The position numbers were made by a program, and so were the translations under genes. Shown here piece after piece: positions 3,975-36,615 of a DNA stretch of 63,814 bases. Positions within the stretch are counted from its first letter, which is position 1; each line of letters starts with the position of its first letter. Source of the stretch: Eubacteriales bacterium (lineage in GTDB: Bacteria; Bacillota; Clostridia; Lachnospirales; Lachnospiraceae); assembly GCA_030536575.1 (NCBI GenBank), contig JAUNPS010000017.1, positions 1 through 63,814 on the forward strand. Reading direction: 5' to 3'. Under the pieces are notes generated by a model. That model was not told where the DNA came from and did not search any database. It saw nothing but the letters and a program-made list of their open reading frames with translations.

Positions 3975-4113
3975 TTCCAATACACTCCAGACAAATATTG
4001 ACCGCTTTCGTGAAGACCACCGCAACCTCCCCGCGCAGCGCGCCAAAGACCATCATGCAAAGTCCAAGCAAAGCGCAGAACCATCCAGCATATTTTCGGA
4101 TAGCGTTCTTCAT
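3967..4113 (-). CDS. CD1871A-family CXXC mini-protein
   Basis: A 48-residue protein reading MKNAIRKYAGWFCALLGL and ending NICLECIGIG: one membrane helix followed by a C-terminal CLEC (CXXC) motif. That is the pattern of CD1871A-family small proteins, which in Clostridia accompany thioredoxin-like and 4Fe-4S membrane proteins. Its ATG overlaps the TGA of the TlpA-like gene (ATGA) and its TAA overlaps the TTG start of the polyferredoxin gene, so translation of all three is probably coupled. Role inferred: a membrane thiol relay between the thioredoxin-like and iron-sulfur partners. Confidence 0.8.
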   Translation of the reverse strand: MKNAIRKYAGWFCALLGLCMMVFGALRGEVAVVFTKAVNICLECIGIG

Positions 4114-5258
4114 GACGCATCGCTTCCCTTCAGATTCTCCAGTTCCGTTCGGATAATGGTTTCCCAGTCGTCATAGTTTCTGGCTCCAATGTAAGCTTCC
4201 CCGGCAAAATTCCCATTCCGATCCACAAAGAAGGATTCCGGAACCGCGTTAATCCCTTCCAGGCGTCCATTCAGAGCCGTCTCATCAGGAATGAGGTACG
4301 GGAACGTACAGCCGGTCTTCTCTGCCAGCAGTTTTGCTGTCTCGACCGCACTCTGCGTCGCGTCGGTTTGCTTAAAATTCACATCAACCGCATCCATGAC
4401 AAAACCGACCACGCCGATATCAAGTTCTTCGCCCAACTCCTGATAAATTTTTTCCAACTCCGGAAGCTCATTCACGCAAGGCCCGCACCAGGTCGCGAAA
4501 ACATTCACAAGCGTCAGCTCATGCTCCGCAAAAATGCTCTCGTCAACCGCGTTTCCCTCGATATCCGTTGTCTGAAAAAGCCCAATATCGCCAATGGCTT
4601 CCAGGTCAAAATCCGACGTGTCCTGCTCCAAGGCCGCCATCTCGGTAATCGTCACTTCCGCCTCGGCCAAAGCATCCGTAAACTGCGTATCCGCCTCCTC
4701 ATTGAAACTCAGATAATACGTATAGGCGCCATCGTCGCTCTTCCCGATCTCCGTATGCTCCGTAAGCCCTGTGATTTCGTCAATCTGTTCGGTCAGATCT
4801 TCCTGGAGAACATCCAGCCGTCCGATCACCTGAAGGCTGTTCCGCCACTCAAGATAAGTCATCATATTGTCTGTCAGCTCCTGGGTCGTTTCTTCGTCCT
4901 GCTGCCAGCCGGAAGAAACCTCCGCCTCCTCTGAATCAAAGACCATCTGCGTCTTCTGTTCTTCCGTCAGCGCATACCAGATCAGGAAGCCATGCGAAAG
5001 CTGCTCCTCCTCATCTGTAGAGAATTCCAGCCAAGCCATCCAAACGTCATGATCCTCCAGCCAGCCCTGAAAACTGTCCGGCAGTACCAACTGGAACCCG
5101 GCGGCACTGCAGTCATAAGAATCCTGCCACGGCATCCCAAACTCAGCCGGGAGAAAAGACTCCGTTACTGTCTCTGCTGCCGCAGACTCCGGAAACCCGC
5201 AAAAAACATTCAAACACAGCGTGCCAACCAAAAGCGATTGAAATAATTTTTTCCTCAT
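4110..5258 (-). CDS. Exported TlpA-like thioredoxin-fold protein with large N-terminal domain
   Basis: A 382-residue protein. The N-terminal signal peptide (MRKKLFQSLLVGTLCLNVF, cleavage near ESAAA-ET) is followed by about 230 acidic residues of unknown fold and a C-terminal thioredoxin/AhpC-TSA domain with active site FATWCGPC and a cis-Pro-type AVPES motif. It should act outside the membrane as a disulfide or peroxide reductase fed by its operon partners. The start is the ATG preceded by AGGAGGGCTT; an in-frame upstream ATG (5309) would put 17 residues before the signal peptide. First gene of the leftward operon. Confidence 0.85.
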   Translation of the reverse strand: MRKKLFQSLLVGTLCLNVFCGFPESAAAETVTESFLPAEFGMPWQDSYDCSAAGFQLVLPDSFQGWLEDHDVWMAWLEFSTDEEEQLSHGFLIWYALTEEQKTQMVFDSEEAEVSSGWQQDEETTQELTDNMMTYLEWRNSLQVIGRLDVLQEDLTEQIDEITGLTEHTEIGKSDDGAYTYYLSFNEEADTQFTDALAEAEVTITEMAALEQDTSDFDLEAIGDIGLFQTTDIEGNAVDESIFAEHELTLVNVFATWCGPCVNELPELEKIYQELGEELDIGVVGFVMDAVDVNFKQTDATQSAVETAKLLAEKTGCTFPYLIPDETALNGRLEGINAVPESFFVDRNGNFAGEAYIGARNYDDWETIIRTELENLKGSDAS

Positions 5259-5371
5259 AAGCCCTCCTATTGCTTTTATTTCCGCGAGCAACGAGCCAAG
5301 CAACCGCATTTGTGCGGATATTCGGTGACTGCCGCAGAGTATTTGATTAAAAAGTGAAAATCTTTACGCCC

Positions 5372-5425: not shown

Positions 5426-5445
5426 GAGAACCTCAAAAAGTTACA

Positions 5446-5769
5446 GTTCACACCTACGCCAGCTTTTGGGTACTTCCCAGTCTTCTACGTACAGTTACCG
5501 GGAAGACGGAAAGCTTACGGGGACGTGTTTCGAGGGGCGGTTTTAGGAAGAGTCGAGATCGCCTCTTACTAAGACTTGAGCGCGAAGGCTTTCCTGAGCG
5601 TTCTAGTCGCAGTTAGAGGAAGCTTCGCCTCAGTGTGCGAAAAAGCTGCCAGTGGCAGGTTTTCCGTAGACGATGACGTTGCCCCGTTCCCCGGAAGGTT
5701 TTCGACGGCACGGTGACGTCCGGTTATGTTTTAGTGGTTAAAAAAGGGAAAAGCTGGCGATATGTGAAC
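5446..5769 (+). ncRNA. Large structured RNA, copy 1 (about 324 nt)
   Basis: The 5' and 3' ends pair: GTTCACA with TGTGAAC (5446-5452, 5763-5769) and CGCCAGCTTTT with AAAAGCTGGCG (5457-5467, 5749-5759). The interior shares long conserved blocks with a second locus at 35384-35759, for example CCGGGAAG, GGGGACGTGTTTCGAGG, GTCGAGATCGC, TTACTAAGACTT, CCTGAGCGT, CTAGTCGCAGTTAG, GATGACGTTGCCCCGTTCC and TTTTCGACGGCACGGTGAC. Hairpins of different length and sequence sit at variable points; here CTGCC/GGCAG near 5646-5658. The end helix is kept by compensatory changes between copies. No open frame covers it. Strand is chosen from the closing helix and the shared orientation of both copies relative to downstream genes. 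The class is not recognised; raiA-type RNA is one candidate. Confidence 0.7.
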
Positions 5770-5799
5770 GGTACCCCCCAATTCCCCCGTCCCTCCCAC

Positions 5800-5837: not shown

Positions 5838-5979
5838 GTTCCTGTTCACTCGTACCTCGTTCCAGTAACGAATCGCAGGCTCATTTTAAGTTTTGTTTCG
5901 CAAAAGAGCCTGCTCACACCTGAATCACGTTCTTACGTACCTGAGCAGCTAAGTGCTCAGGTACTGTCTGAACAGTAAC
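5838..5979 (-). repeat. MITE-like repeat, copy B (142 bp, inverted relative to copy A)
   Basis: Read on the minus strand it starts GTTACTGTTC and ends GAACAGGAAC and matches copy A over its whole length with only a few substitutions. It contains a perfect 11-bp stem GTACCTGAGCA/TGCTCAGGTAC. It ends 27 bp before the kinase start codon and would fold as a long hairpin in the kinase mRNA leader. Confidence 0.75.
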
Positions 5980-6006
5980 AAGAAAACACCTAAAAGAGGA
6001 CTCCCC

Positions 6007-7776
6007 ATGACCAAAAAAATCAACAACCTCCCCCTAAAACACAAACTCCTTGCCATCATGCTGATCGGCCTCTCCATCATGGCCGTCATGTCCTTCCTGA
6101 TCATCCAAATCCTGTCCTCCTCCTATAACCAGATGCTCTACCAGTCCATCTCCGAATCCCTGTCCTACTCCGCCAAAGAGATCACGGACTACCTGGACAA
6201 AATGGAGAACCTCACCCAGCTCTTCCTCTCCGACACCAAAGTCCAGCAGGAACTCCAAAACCTGAAAAAAGCATACGAAAACCAGGAAGGACACCTAAAC
6301 GCACTGAATAAAGTGAGCAGCTACACCGGAGACTACTACTACAACTACTCCGACGGAATCCTGAAATACATCAACCTCTACACCCCCGCCTCCGTCATAA
6401 AAACAAACCTGATCTCCGCCGACAAAGTCCCCGAAAGCATCCAACAGGAAATCCTGGCCCAGTCCGACGAAAAAGACGGCGCACCCTGCTGGGTCGACAC
6501 CTACATGGACGAATACGGCCTTTTCCTGGCCCGGAACATCCGCCAGATCGAAATGCTGAAACTGGACACCTTGGGTACCATCCTGATCAACATTGACATG
6601 AATGCCCTTGTAAAAGCCAGCACGAAATTCGAAAACCAATACGGCGAAACCGCCTATCTGATCCGCGCAAACGGTAAAACGCTGTACCACACCGAAAACC
6701 TTTCAGACGAAAACACCGCCCGGTTCAACCCGGAAACCATCGACAAATACAGCATCGAACAGGTCGGCGACCGTATGTATTTTATCTCCCACGGCATGAT
6801 CGAGGAATACGGCTGGGACTATTACTGCCTGGTTTCTTATGAAGAAATCGATGAAAAACTGACCGGTATCCGCAGCGTCTGTTTCTGGATCATTATCCTG
6901 GACTTTTTGGCGGTAATCTTTATCACCGTCCGCCTGGTCGGAAAACTGGTTTTTCATATCAGCAGCCTGAAAGACCGGATGCATCAGTTCGCCCTGGACA
7001 ACACCCAGGTTCCGGAAACCGCCTACAACTACGCTGAACGCAAGGACGAACTGGGTCTTCTGAACCAGCAGTTCGATGAAATGAGCCGCACCATCATTGC
7101 CCTGATCCAGGAAAACTATGTAAACGAACTCCTGAAAAAAGAAGCCCAGCTCCGCGCCCTGGAAAACCAGATCAACCCCCATTTCCTGTACAACACCCTG
7201 GACTCCATCAAATGGCGCGCAAAATCCGTCGGCGAAAAAGACATCACCGACATGGTTGAATCCCTAAGCGTCCTGCTGCGCGCCTCATTGCGCACGAAAG
7301 ACGAAAAAGACTACACCGTCGGCCGGGAAATGGAAATCGTATCCTCCTACATAACGATCCAAAAACTGCGCTACGAAGAACGCCTGCTTTTCGAAAACAG
7401 CATTGAAGAGAGCTGGTATCCTTACATCATTCCGAAACTGGTCATTCAGCCATTGCTCGAAAACGCGATCTTTTACGGGGTAGAACAAAACGTGGAGGAA
7501 TGCCACATCATCCTTTCCGGCGAACAGAAAGACGGCGTCCTGCATTTTTACGTCAAAAACACCGGCTCCGAGATCGAAGACGACCTCCTGGAAAAGCTGG
7601 AAACCGAAGAAATCAAGCCCCAGGGTCATGGCGTGGGGCTTCTGAACATCCATAAGCGCGTCCGCATCCAATACGGCGAAGCCTACGGACTGAAATTATA
7701 CAATGAAGGAGATTATGCCGTAGCAGAATTGCTGATTCCGGCAGAAAAAAACGATGTTGAAATTAATCATTGCTGA
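6007..7776 (+). CDS. YesM-type sensor histidine kinase
   Basis: A 589-residue membrane kinase. One helix at about 13-35, an extracellular sensor of about 255 residues, a second helix at about 293-315, then HAMP and the His_kinase domain with phospho-acceptor H392 in INPHFLYNT. A GHKL ATPase follows (LLENAIFYG N-box; GHGVGLLNIHKR). It should sense an extracellular glycan or sugar, perhaps via the binding protein encoded downstream, and phosphorylate the next gene product. The open frame runs upstream to 5953 inside the MITE; I chose ATG 6007 because AGAGGACT precedes it and the protein then begins with the usual short cytoplasmic leader. It overlaps the regulator gene by 23 bp. Confidence 0.9.
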   Translation: MTKKINNLPLKHKLLAIMLIGLSIMAVMSFLIIQILSSSYNQMLYQSISESLSYSAKEITDYLDKMENLTQLFLSDTKVQQELQNLKKAYENQEGHLNALNKVSSYTGDYYYNYSDGILKYINLYTPASVIKTNLISADKVPESIQQEILAQSDEKDGAPCWVDTYMDEYGLFLARNIRQIEMLKLDTLGTILINIDMNALVKASTKFENQYGETAYLIRANGKTLYHTENLSDENTARFNPETIDKYSIEQVGDRMYFISHGMIEEYGWDYYCLVSYEEIDEKLTGIRSVCFWIIILDFLAVIFITVRLVGKLVFHISSLKDRMHQFALDNTQVPETAYNYAERKDELGLLNQQFDEMSRTIIALIQENYVNELLKKEAQLRALENQINPHFLYNTLDSIKWRAKSVGEKDITDMVESLSVLLRASLRTKDEKDYTVGREMEIVSSYITIQKLRYEERLLFENSIEESWYPYIIPKLVIQPLLENAIFYGVEQNVEECHIILSGEQKDGVLHFYVKNTGSEIEDDLLEKLETEEIKPQGHGVGLLNIHKRVRIQYGEAYGLKLYNEGDYAVAELLIPAEKNDVEINHC

Positions 7777-17035: not shown

Positions 17036-17100
17036 GTACTATTCAGACAGTACCTGAGCACTTAGTTGCGCAGGTACGTAAGAACGTGATTCGGGCGTGT
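17036..17100 (+). repeat. MITE-like repeat, copy C (partial and decayed)
   Basis: GTACTATTCAGACAGTACC and the following CTGAGCACTTAG, GTACGTAAGAACGTGATTC blocks match the first half of copies A and B. Beyond about 17100 similarity fades into GC-rich sequence. It sits in the divergent promoter region between the AGCS and LysR genes. Confidence 0.6.
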
Positions 17101-17229
17101 GCCGGACTGCGCGGCGCGCGGAAAACCGGTTGCCAATCTTTTCATTTTAGTATATAGTAGGAATCAGCATCTGTAAAATTGATAAATATAATGTGAAGAA
17201 TCGAAAATATAGATGAAAGGCGGGAGACA

Positions 17230-33142: not shown

Positions 33143-33160
33143 GGTTTTCGTAGTTAAAAA

Positions 33161-33245
33161 TGGGGAGCTGGCTGAAGCCGGCTGAGAGGAAACTGGATCG
33201 TTTCGACCCAAAACCTGATTTGGATAATGCCAACGTAGGGACATA
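33161..33245 (+). promoter_or_regulatory. TPP (THI-box) riboswitch
   Basis: Classic THI-box order: GGGGAGCTGGCT, GGCTGAGAGGA, GACCCAAAACCTGATTTGGA, TAATGCCAACGTAGGGA. It binds thiamine pyrophosphate and is followed by two terminators before thiW, so control is by premature termination when TPP is plentiful. Confidence 0.95.
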
Positions 33246-33287
33246 CCGAAGCAAGACAGCGAAGCGATGCGCTTCCTGTTTCAATGA

Positions 33288-33948: not shown

Positions 33949-34716
33949 ATGGATGGATTTTCGGCGAAGGTTCATTGCCTGACGAACCCGGTCACGATGC
34001 AGGAGGTCGTGAATGTGCTGCTGGCGGCGGGCGGAAGCGCGATTATGGCCCAGGATCCGGCGGAAGTGGAAGAGATCACCGCTTTCTGCGACGCCACGCT
34101 TCTGAATACAGGAGTCCCGGACGCAGAGAAATTCCGAAGCTGCATACTCGCCGGGAAGCGGGCGGATGCGCTGGGGCATCCGGTGATTCTGGATCCGGTA
34201 GGCGTGGGAGCAAGCGCCTTTCGAAAGCAGGAGCTTCAAAAGCTGCTCTCGGAAGTTCCCGTTTCGCTGATCCGCTGTAATCAGGAAGAAGCCTGCACAC
34301 TTTTACATATGCGCATGGGGCATCCAGGCGGCGTGGAAAGCGCGGTGCGCTTCGGGCAGGGACGGCAGACAGAAATTGCGGAAAAATTGGCAAAAACCTA
34401 TGATTGTACGGTGCTTGTCAGCGGGGAAACCGACGTTGTTTCGGATGGAAGATGGTCTGTCCAGATCTGCGGAGGGGATGCGCGGATTGCGCGGATTACC
34501 GGAAGCGGGTGTATGCTGTCGGCGCTGTGCGCGCTGCTTTGCGGGGCGGGGCTGCCGGCCTGGGAGGCGGCATGCAGGGCGGCGAAAATCTGGAAAAAAA
34601 GCGCGGAAAGGGCAGGAATCCGCACAGAGGAAAGCCATGGAGGGATCGGCAGCTTCCGCATCTTTTTGTTTGATGAGGTGGACAGGCTGTGCCATGGAAG
34701 GGAGGAAACGGAATGA
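33949..34716 (+). CDS. thiM: Hydroxyethylthiazole kinase ThiM
   Basis: A 255-residue ribokinase-fold enzyme that phosphorylates hydroxyethylthiazole for thiamine salvage. Motifs VHCLTNPVTMQEVVNVLLA, LDPVGVGAS and the ATP/anion-hole ITGSGCMLSAL are present. The N-terminus is shorter than usual but begins right before the conserved block. Spacing to thiW is 3 bp and thiE overlaps its end. Confidence 0.92.
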   Translation: MDGFSAKVHCLTNPVTMQEVVNVLLAAGGSAIMAQDPAEVEEITAFCDATLLNTGVPDAEKFRSCILAGKRADALGHPVILDPVGVGASAFRKQELQKLLSEVPVSLIRCNQEEACTLLHMRMGHPGGVESAVRFGQGRQTEIAEKLAKTYDCTVLVSGETDVVSDGRWSVQICGGDARIARITGSGCMLSALCALLCGAGLPAWEAACRAAKIWKKSAERAGIRTEESHGGIGSFRIFLFDEVDRLCHGREETE

Positions 34717-35348
34717 AGATTTTACCAGAACAGCTTTTGCTGTATGCGGTGACGGATAAAAGCTGGCTGAGGCCGGGAGAGCGGCTTGCGGAGGTTACGG
34801 AGGAACTTCTGCAGGCGGGCGTTACCTGTGTGCAGCTTCGGGATAAGCAGGCGGAGGACGCGCTGTTTCTGGAAGAAGCCAAGGAACTAAAGGCTCTCTG
34901 CGACCGTTACCGCGTCCCGTTTATCGTCAATGACCGGGTAGAAATCGCGAAAGCGGTGGGCGCATCCGGCGTCCATGTGGGCCTGTCTGACATGGGAATC
35001 AAGAAGGCAAGGGAGATTCTTGGGGACTCCTTTGTGATTGGCGGCAGCGCCCACAATGTACAGGAAGCGCTGGCGGCGCAGGAAGCCGGAGCCGATTACA
35101 TTGGCTGCGGAGCCGTCTTCGGGAGCAGTACGAAGAAAGATGTGACGCTGCTTTCGGCGGAAGAGCTGCGGGCAATCTGCGGCGCTGTCCGGATTCCGGC
35201 GGTTGCGATCGGCGGAATTACAAGAGAAAATGTTCGGCGGCTTTCGGGTACGGGAATCGCCGGGACAGCGGTGGTGAGCGCACTGTTCGCCGCCGGGGAT
35301 AAGCGGGCGGCAGCGCGGGAGATGCTGGCGCTCGTGAAGGAACTATAA
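34713..35348 (+). CDS. thiE: Thiamine-phosphate synthase ThiE
   Basis: A 211-residue TIM-barrel enzyme joining HMP-PP and thiazole phosphate. Motifs LYAVTDKSW, VTCVQLRDK, FIVNDRVEIA, GVHVGLSD, GADYIGCGAVFGSSTK and AVAIGGI are in order. Start ATG 34713 overlaps the thiM stop (ATGA) and follows GGGAGGAAAC; a longer frame from 34689 is not needed. Confidence 0.93.
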   Translation: MKILPEQLLLYAVTDKSWLRPGERLAEVTEELLQAGVTCVQLRDKQAEDALFLEEAKELKALCDRYRVPFIVNDRVEIAKAVGASGVHVGLSDMGIKKAREILGDSFVIGGSAHNVQEALAAQEAGADYIGCGAVFGSSTKKDVTLLSAEELRAICGAVRIPAVAIGGITRENVRRLSGTGIAGTAVVSALFAAGDKRAAAREMLALVKEL

Positions 35349-35383
35349 AAAGAATCCGGTTTTGGATTCAGGCACAAAATGGT

Positions 35384-35759
35384 GTTCACACTCGCGCCAG
35401 CCTTTCTCGGTCTGAAGGAATTTGGGATACAGTTGCCGGGAAGGCGGAAAGCTTGCGGGGACGTGTTTCGAGGGAATGCGGGTTTCACCTGCATCTCCGC
35501 TTCCAACGGAGATGCAGGCGTGCCGTACACGGCAAGGAAGAAGGTCGAGATCGCGCCTTACTAAGACTTTCTGGTGAATCGGATACCATGCTCGCATGGC
35601 AGGGCGTATGAAGTAGGAAGGCATTCCTGAGCGTCCTAGTCGCAGTTAGGGGAAGCTTGGTGATGACGTTGCCCCGTTCCACGAAAGGTTTTCGACGGCA
35701 CGGTGACGTCCGGCTATCTTAACATGGTAAGAAATAGCAAAGGCTGACGCGATGTGAGT
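35384..35759 (+). ncRNA. Large structured RNA, copy 2 (about 375 nt), within the thiamine operon
   Basis: Same architecture as 5446-5769. The closing helix is GCGCCAGCCTTT (35394-35405) with AAAGGCTGACGC (35739-35750), plus TTCACA with TGTGAG; relative to copy 1 several pairs change on both sides. Conserved core blocks occur in the same order. Variable hairpins are longer here: a 12-bp CCTGCATCTCCG/CGGAGATGCAGG stem (within 35488-35518) and CCATG/CATGG near 35586-35599. It fills the gap between thiE and thiD and lacks any open frame. Whether it is transcribed from its own promoter or as part of the thi mRNA cannot be told. Confidence 0.7.
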
Positions 35760-35835
35760 AGCCATTTTTAAAAGCGGCGGATTGGGGGCACCACCTTCCG
35801 TCGCGTTACAAAAGCATGCTGCAAGGAGGAACCTT

Positions 35836-36615
35836 ATGAAAACAGCATTGACAATCGCTGGAAGCGACTCCAGCGGAGGCGCCGGCATCCAGGCAGACAT
35901 TAAGACCATGACCGCCCACGGCATCTACGCCCTGAGCGCCGTCACGGCCCTGACTGCCCAGAATACGACCGGCGTTTATGGAATACAGGAAGTGACCCCG
36001 GAGTTTCTGGCAAAAGAACTGGACTGCATATTCACCGATATTTTTCCGGATGCGGTCAAAATCGGGATGCTCTCTTCCGGAGAACTTATGAAAACAGTGG
36101 CAGAAAAACTGCGGGAATACGGCGCAAAACACGTCGTCCTGGATCCCGTAATGGTAGCCACCAGCGGCGCGCGCCTGATGCAGGAAGAAGCGGCGGAAAT
36201 TATGAAAAAGGAACTGTTTCCCCTAGCGGAAGTCATCACGCCGAACATTCCGGAGACAGAAGCTCTGACCGGAATGCGCATCCAGAACGCAGAAGACATG
36301 GAACAGGCCGCAAAATGCCTATACGAGCTGAGCGGCTGCGCCGTCCTCTGCAAAGGCGGTCATCGTATTTTAGACGCAAACGACCTGCTTTACCAAAATG
36401 GCACAGCCCTGTGGATCAAAGGAAAACGGATTGACAATCCAAACACCCACGGAACCGGCTGCACCCTGTCCAGCGCCATTGCAAGCAATCTGGCCAAAGG
36501 AGACAGCCTGGAAGACGCGGTACGCCACGCAAAAGCCTATTTGGAAGGCGCATTAGCCGCAGGCCTGAATCTTGGGAAAGGCTCCGGCCCCTTAAACCAC
36601 ATGTATGCCCTGTAA
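35836..36615 (+). CDS. thiD: HMP/HMP-P kinase ThiD
   Basis: A 259-residue ribokinase-fold enzyme phosphorylating hydroxymethylpyrimidine (phosphate). Motifs TIAGSDSSGGAGIQADIKT, VLDPVMVATSG, and the C-terminal THGTGCTLSSAIA anion hole. ATG 35836 follows AAGGAGGAACC; the frame extends 54 bases upstream without an RBS. It is separated from thiE by the structured RNA. Confidence 0.93.
   Translation: MKTALTIAGSDSSGGAGIQADIKTMTAHGIYALSAVTALTAQNTTGVYGIQEVTPEFLAKELDCIFTDIFPDAVKIGMLSSGELMKTVAEKLREYGAKHVVLDPVMVATSGARLMQEEAAEIMKKELFPLAEVITPNIPETEALTGMRIQNAEDMEQAAKCLYELSGCAVLCKGGHRILDANDLLYQNGTALWIKGKRIDNPNTHGTGCTLSSAIASNLAKGDSLEDAVRHAKAYLEGALAAGLNLGKGSGPLNHMYAL

Follow-up and report, generated by a model that had tools for sequence, protein, structure and literature searches.

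The window, which is the whole 63,814-nucleotide stretch of DNA that was analysed, carries two copies of a structured element. Copy 1 is flanked by open reading frames at 4110-5309 (- strand) and 5953-7776 (+ strand), and copy 2 lies between two same-strand open reading frames at 34689-35348 and 35782-36615. Upstream of copy 2, an Rfam scan of the window detected a TPP riboswitch at 33151-33258. Alignment with MAFFT showed long blocks common to both copies in the same order, interrupted by hairpin insertions unique to one copy, as the preliminary description of the two related intervals had stated. The edges of the element lie slightly beyond those intervals, at 5440-5775 and 35378-35766. The features are as follows.

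5440-5775, + strand: element copy 1, carrying optional module C
5440-5463, + strand: left inverted end of copy 1, GTTACAGTTCACACCTACGCCAGC
5753-5775, - strand: right inverted end of copy 1
5534-5538, + strand: 5' side of helix Pa in copy 1, partner 5681-5685 (A4 columns 10-14/116-120, mapped by hand)
5681-5685, + strand: 3' side of helix Pa in copy 1 (mapped by hand)
5552-5625, + strand: apical domain of copy 1 (mapped by hand), with the Pb 5' side at 5552-5557, Pc at 5562-5569/5612-5619, Pd at 5573-5583/5598-5608, Pe at 5586-5588/5593-5595 and the first half of the Pb 3' side at 5623-5625, its second half (5669-5671) lying behind module C
5626-5668, + strand: optional hairpin module C of copy 1
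5838-5979, + strand: intact 142-bp repeat of a second family with related ends, GTTACTGTTCA
968-1109 and 17037-17105 (the latter partial): other window copies of the 142-bp repeat
35378-35766, + strand: element copy 2, carrying optional modules A and B
35486-35535, + strand: optional module A of copy 2, two hairpins (edges approximate)
35570-35613, + strand: optional module B of copy 2 (edges approximate)

Both copies are closed by an end-to-end helix that is kept by changes on both sides (AGCTTTT/AAAAGCT in copy 1, AGCCTTT/AAAGGCT in copy 2), again as first described, and the outermost bases of copy 2 (AATGG..CCATT) are unlike GTTAC and still pair with each other. Compared with dinucleotide shuffles, the fold of copy 1 had a z-score of -5.1 (0 of 100 shuffles equally good) and that of copy 2 a z-score of -3.1 (1 of 100). 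A covariance model built without either window copy recovered both (E 9.9e-27 and 2.6e-12).

The element matched none of the 4227 families of Rfam 15. In the scan of the window only the TPP riboswitch exceeded its gathering threshold, both intervals searched at E up to 10 gave chance-level hits only, and seven related loci gave two hits, neither over a core. The candidates put forward in the preliminary description, raiA, ROOL and HEARO, found no match to the element in Rfam 15, nor did introns; models for all of these are, we presume, in the library. We found no description of the element family in the literature searched, which lay mostly outside subscription journals; it may be listed among the 3161 candidate RNAs in the supplementary tables of PMC8040213.

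The element is far more numerous than the two copies first reported. In the window genome (4.81 Mb, 100 contigs), BLAST with copy 1 found dozens of places (best 40 of 78 candidates scored). R1, a covariance model that drew on 18 copies of the window genome and on four relatives, gave at least 56 matches there at E up to 0.01 (best 150 of 754 candidates scored), corresponding to at least 41 distinct places once antisense matches at the same places were removed. Six further places, some of them partial, were found by BLAST only (on contigs C89, C46 twice, C85, C80 and C31, the last at 69.7 kb). The hairpins that had been seen to differ between the copies are accounted for by three optional modules, A, B and C, in varied combinations: among 30 aligned copies, 21 were shorter than 300 nt and had no module, three carried all of them (L003, L004, L060), three A and B (window copy 2, L062, L055), and one each B and C (L011), A (L020) and C (window copy 1). 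Module C, the GCTGCCAGTGGCAGGTTTTC hairpin, also occurred away from a core in other genomes of the same taxonomic family (L043 1500-1545, L045 1500-1560 and L110 near 1640), once as two copies close together.

Within that taxonomic family, R1 matched 30 of 397 genomes, the window genome included, and 29 of 334 genera, in a survey that scored at most eight candidates per genome under stricter filters and gave no match in G204, a genome of the same genus. Samples drawn from the order and from the class, both including the window genome, yielded 5 of 344 and 1 of 341 matched genomes, all from the window genome's taxonomic family. Six other genomes held 32 (G102), 19 (G026), 14 (G335), 13 (G668), 13 (G133, all partial) and 10 (G364) matches. 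A core pattern searched in a collection of genome contigs hit eight stretches in unrelated bacteria, none of which fitted the model at E up to 1; these are probably chance matches, and the collection may omit records near the window genome. Searches of viral contigs (with one exact pattern), plasmids (with copy 1) and phages (with a relative's core) gave no matches.

Copies are about 290-430 bp long. From the outside inwards, inverted ends are followed by a long outer stem, two fixed internal loops (ACA(G) opposite (C)GUCC, then UAAGC opposite GCGU), helix Pa and the nested helices Pb, Pc, Pd and Pe. The outer stem is copy-specific and varies even inside one genome; helices Pb to Pe, which make up an apical domain of about 85-95 nt, carry conserved mismatched loops. 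Compensatory changes in the core exceed chance. In A4, a plain MAFFT alignment of 22 sequences on which the structure was drawn by hand, 98.8% of cells were paired and 17 of 31 pairs showed two-sided changes; shuffles gave 5.7 (sd 1.4) such pairs, and slid controls no more than 4. Two alignments fitted to R1, and thereby leaning toward the structure, showed two-sided changes in 30 of 31 pairs each: 280 cells versus 56 (sd 7) in A6 (43 sequences), and 546 versus 130 (sd 13) in A8 (78 matches without window-genome copies, one of them antisense, some from loci also in A6). The covariation of A6 recurs in A8, whose sequences are for the most part different ones. As two-sided changes show that complementarity is kept and not on which molecule, covariation alone does not prove an RNA.

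In the window genome, copies have terminal inverted repeats in common, GTTACWGTTCACA..GCCAGC. The end pattern GTTACNGTTCACA, allowing at most one mismatch and counted over both the element and the 142-bp repeat, occurred at 86+81 places versus 6+9 for a reversed control. Of 32 copies tried for target duplications, 28 had both ends recognised, and in 15 of these 7-8 of 8 flanking bases matched (all eight in 7 of the 15); by our own arithmetic a match of at least 7 of 8 has a chance of about 1%, the best of 25 offsets being taken. The two marks of a MITE, inverted ends common to copies and a target duplication of fixed length (8 bp), were therefore both found in the window genome, and the element is a sequence repeat that bears them, contrary to the earlier view of an RNA 'rather than a sequence repeat'. 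At the window copies themselves a clear duplication was absent (5 of 8 bases at copy 1; 3' end of copy 2 unrecognised). Several target sites are hairpins, of which those of L008, L016 and L017 look like terminators, and L009 is inserted in a 142-bp repeat. The ends of that repeat (GTTACTGTTCACT / GTTACTGTTCAGA) are similar to the element's own, so a single transposase may mobilise the two families. The places with exact ends that were inspected proved to be copies, remnants or a solo palindrome, and no transposase with these ends was found among them, one-mismatch places being partly listed. As a source of empty sites, G204 had the flanks on different contigs or without a match. In another genome, the core at locus L039 (1440-1790) has an outer inverted repeat of 33 bp that differs from the one in the window genome, and this core is broken by another palindromic element with CAGTATAACGAAT ends.

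We next consider the neighbouring genes, called with a codon-usage gene caller of our own and read relative to the + strand of the element. For the 29 copies counted in the window genome, the 5'- and 3'-side neighbours were oriented ++ in 20, -- in 3, -+ in 5 and ?+ in 1 (20 versus 3, p 0.0005), so that 26 of 29 copies had a sense gene on the 3' side. Of the 20 ++ copies, 16 had the upstream stop codon no further than 147 nt from the core, which places it about 70 nt or less from the element. The 32 copies of G102, a different genome, were arranged -- 14, +- 9, ++ 7, -+ 1 and ?- 1, with the 3'-side gene antisense in 24 of 32 (p 0.007); for 14 of these 24 genes the stop codon fell 30-64 nt away from the core. 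Eleven copies of G026, which with these two genomes make up the count, gave -- 5, ++ 2, -+ 1, -? 1, ?+ 1 and ?- 1. A cruder count, superseded by the codon-model one, had given ++ 19, -- 3, -+ 4, +- 2 and ?+ 1 in the window genome and, for 33 loci of other genomes, ++ 6, -- 10, -+ 4, +- 7, overlap 4, ?+ 1 and -? 1. Gene 3' ends are favoured and orientation varies by genome. With the 3'-side gene mostly sense in the window genome and mostly antisense in G102, neither strand is consistently co-transcribed; the sense bias of the window genome suggests that transcription matters there. One copy on contig C85 of the window genome adjoins a streptomycin adenylyltransferase-like gene (L015 1692-2573, - strand; Pfam Adenyl_transf, E 4.6e-111), and in L103 a TwoAYGGAY RNA (1167-1331, - strand; Rfam RF01731, 78 bits) adjoins a core without overlap.

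Orthologous sites allowed the fate of single copies to be followed. We compared eight element-bearing loci of G394 with 30 loci of G102, a genome of the same genus. Six of the eight had both flanks in one G102 locus, and at all six the element was present in both species. The 5' stem was 0.94-1.00 identical over the six pairs and the 3' stem 0.93-0.98, save for L251/L224 (0.51), where length changes spoilt the automatic boundary and the full alignment shows the stem almost unchanged. Apical identity was 1.00 in L246/L214 and 0.98 in L250/L226 and L253/L213. In the other three pairs the tip of about 90 nt was strongly different and the outer stem kept: apical identities of 0.53 (L251/L224), 0.64 (L252/L215) and 0.69 (L247/L232) stood beside 5' stem identities of 0.94, 0.94 and 0.98. 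In two fully aligned replaced pairs, the change begins near a conserved TTTTAGC and stops near GCGTTACC. The tip of L224 is 97.7% identical over 88 nt to that of L222 in the same genome, and that of its ortholog L166, which shares its site with L251, is closest to L207 (89%); likewise the L215 tip is nearest to L216 (94%) and that of its ortholog L167 to L211 (91%). These sequences are most simply explained if another copy supplied the tip in an exchange symmetric about the hairpin apex; very fast local evolution might account for them instead. SbcCD might bring about the exchange by cleaving extruded hairpins, which would then be repaired from another copy. At two of the three replaced pairs, L251/L224 and L247/L232, further rearrangements lie no more than about 1 kb away: L207 matches the far 5' flank of L251, and the 3' flank of L232 has shifted by several hundred bases. 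These rearrangements count against tip exchange; L252/L215 is the cleanest case.

Whether complementarity is kept on RNA or on DNA can be read from wobble pairs, as a selected + strand RNA should tolerate single transitions that leave G-U more than those that leave A-C. In the outer stems (89 distinct), isolated mismatches comprised 32 G-U, 32 A-C and 53 transversions beside 2685 matched positions; an earlier count of this kind had given 11 G-U to 9 A-C, and a looser one (126 to 232) was dropped, having run into unrelated flank and a conserved mismatched motif. As a control, 30 TPP riboswitches of the same taxonomic family (the one in the window plus 29 others, from 30 fetched loci of which one, lying at a contig edge, was omitted), aligned with plain MAFFT and counted by the same rule, showed 393 Watson-Crick, 76 G-U, 4 A-C and 22 other cells; 58 of the 76 G-U fell in three columns, leaving 18 G-U to 4 A-C without them. 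Against this control, the outer stems resemble palindromes that undergo repair at the DNA level. The core gave a mixed picture. A4 contained 633 Watson-Crick, 41 G-U, 2 A-C and 6 other cells, which favours RNA and speaks against a DNA reading, although 34 of the 41 G-U lay in two pairs. A6, counted at positions paired in at least 80%, contained 1178, 38, 9 and 29, with 28 of the 38 G-U in two pairs. A8, counted over 75 distinct rows without the antisense row, contained 1966, 66, 17 and 31; one conserved pair, G-U in 43 of 73 cells, held 43 of the 66 and left 23 G-U to 16 A-C. The one or two conserved wobble pairs favour a single-stranded reading, as RNA or as DNA, and the core is ambiguous between the two kinds of upkeep. 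Of the large structured RNA originally proposed, the compensatory changes stand, and the outer stems lack the wobble tolerance that such an RNA should show.

Many copies, covariation, inverted ends with target duplications, and stems kept while tips differ together point to a mobile palindrome with exchanged tips. We give somewhat better than an even chance to the element being a new family of non-autonomous, dispersed, quasi-palindromic DNA elements whose tips are exchanged. In the window genome it would have been spread by a trans-acting transposase that recognises the GTTACWGTTCACA ends, with most insertions in gaps that follow stop codons, several of which are terminator-like hairpins. The extruded hairpin would then undergo breaks or template switches that keep the stems complementary and let another copy overwrite the apical domain. 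Against mobility stands the comparison of G102 with G394, which shows no movement at the six comparable sites. If such repair acts generally, the persistent mismatched loops must be guarded by selection; the conserved loops imply that the folded form is read by something, while the outer stems point to DNA. The original interpretation was half right and is partly supported, in that the element is structured and without an Rfam match, yet is a mobile many-copy palindrome with a putative RNA function.

An RNA function is possible, and the mobile element might carry a functional + strand RNA, either a ribozyme or a structure that protects or processes host transcripts, with template switching merely aiding the pairing of its stems. 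Template switching has indeed been proposed, in PMC8794818, to maintain real RNA hairpins by keeping them perfect, so that DNA-level repair and RNA function are compatible. The conserved mismatched loops, the conserved G-U pair of A8, the G-U excess of the A4 core and the predominantly sense downstream genes of the window genome all agree with this reading, which we nevertheless hold to be rather unlikely in view of the even G-U and A-C counts of the outer stems, the ratio of 23 to 16 in the A8 core without its one conserved pair, and the antisense 3'-side genes of G102.

The stable sites with differing tips could also mean that the unit of spread is the apical hairpin itself. The resident palindromes would be immobile sockets whose tips are overwritten by a hairpin-directed process: either the extruded tip would be cleaved and the gap filled from another copy, or an RNA or single-stranded DNA cassette would be copied. 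A folded 90-nt module would in this way spread through the genome. No other case of a structured hairpin spreading in place is known to us, and we consider this explanation unlikely.

More doubtful still is movement in the manner of REP/REPIN sequences, in which a Y1-type transposase would transfer the hairpin as single-stranded DNA. The element is palindromic, numerous and close to gene 3' ends, and divergent core pairs in several genomes could be the counterparts of REPINs. The ends and 8-bp duplications of the window genome, however, fit a DDE-type transposase, and a replication-strand bias in G102 was not significant (11 to 21, p 0.11). Close core pairs with their 5' ends facing were seen in L106, L109, L110, L116, L128, L130, L164 and L231 and a tandem pair in L117; there was no convergent pair within 1 kb among the matches listed in the surveyed genomes.

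A cis-regulatory leader or riboswitch, as the sense orientation of downstream genes in the window genome might suggest, is highly improbable, since 18 of 20 scanned downstream genes match Pfam families that are unrelated (leucyl-tRNA synthetase, ClpX-like, sigma-70, CTP synthase, PrmA, ScpA, RadC and glycosidases among them; the scans also took in nine upstream genes and a further downstream one) and most G102 copies face a gene's 3' end.

Overall, the preferred reading of a mobile palindrome with exchanged tips describes a family with very strong covariation and no Rfam 15 counterpart, in which part of the covariation bears the mark of DNA-level upkeep, and this makes it a test case for the limits of reading covariation as proof of RNA. 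Because tips are replaced at sites that stay in place, hairpin-driven exchange is open to a direct test through the comparison of strains.

Among known systems, the large RNAs raiA, ROOL, HEARO and OLE have, like the element, a large fold with conserved loops; unlike them, the element found no counterpart in Rfam for either interval even at E up to 10. REP/REPIN sequences are palindromes near gene 3' ends, sometimes in inverted pairs, as the element is, which differs from them in being ten times longer and having 8-bp target duplications. Pneumococcal BOX repeats probably differ from it in sequence and module layout. As outlined in the review PMC10969869, BOX repeats are likewise modular, structured and intergenic, in another host. 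The MITEs Correia, ERIC and RUP are, in the same account, short and non-autonomous like the element, with inverted ends, target duplications, many intergenic copies and a foldable transcript. Judged by description, the element is unlike these three in having a covarying looped core that is common across genera while the outer stems differ, and in having its tips replaced at fixed sites.
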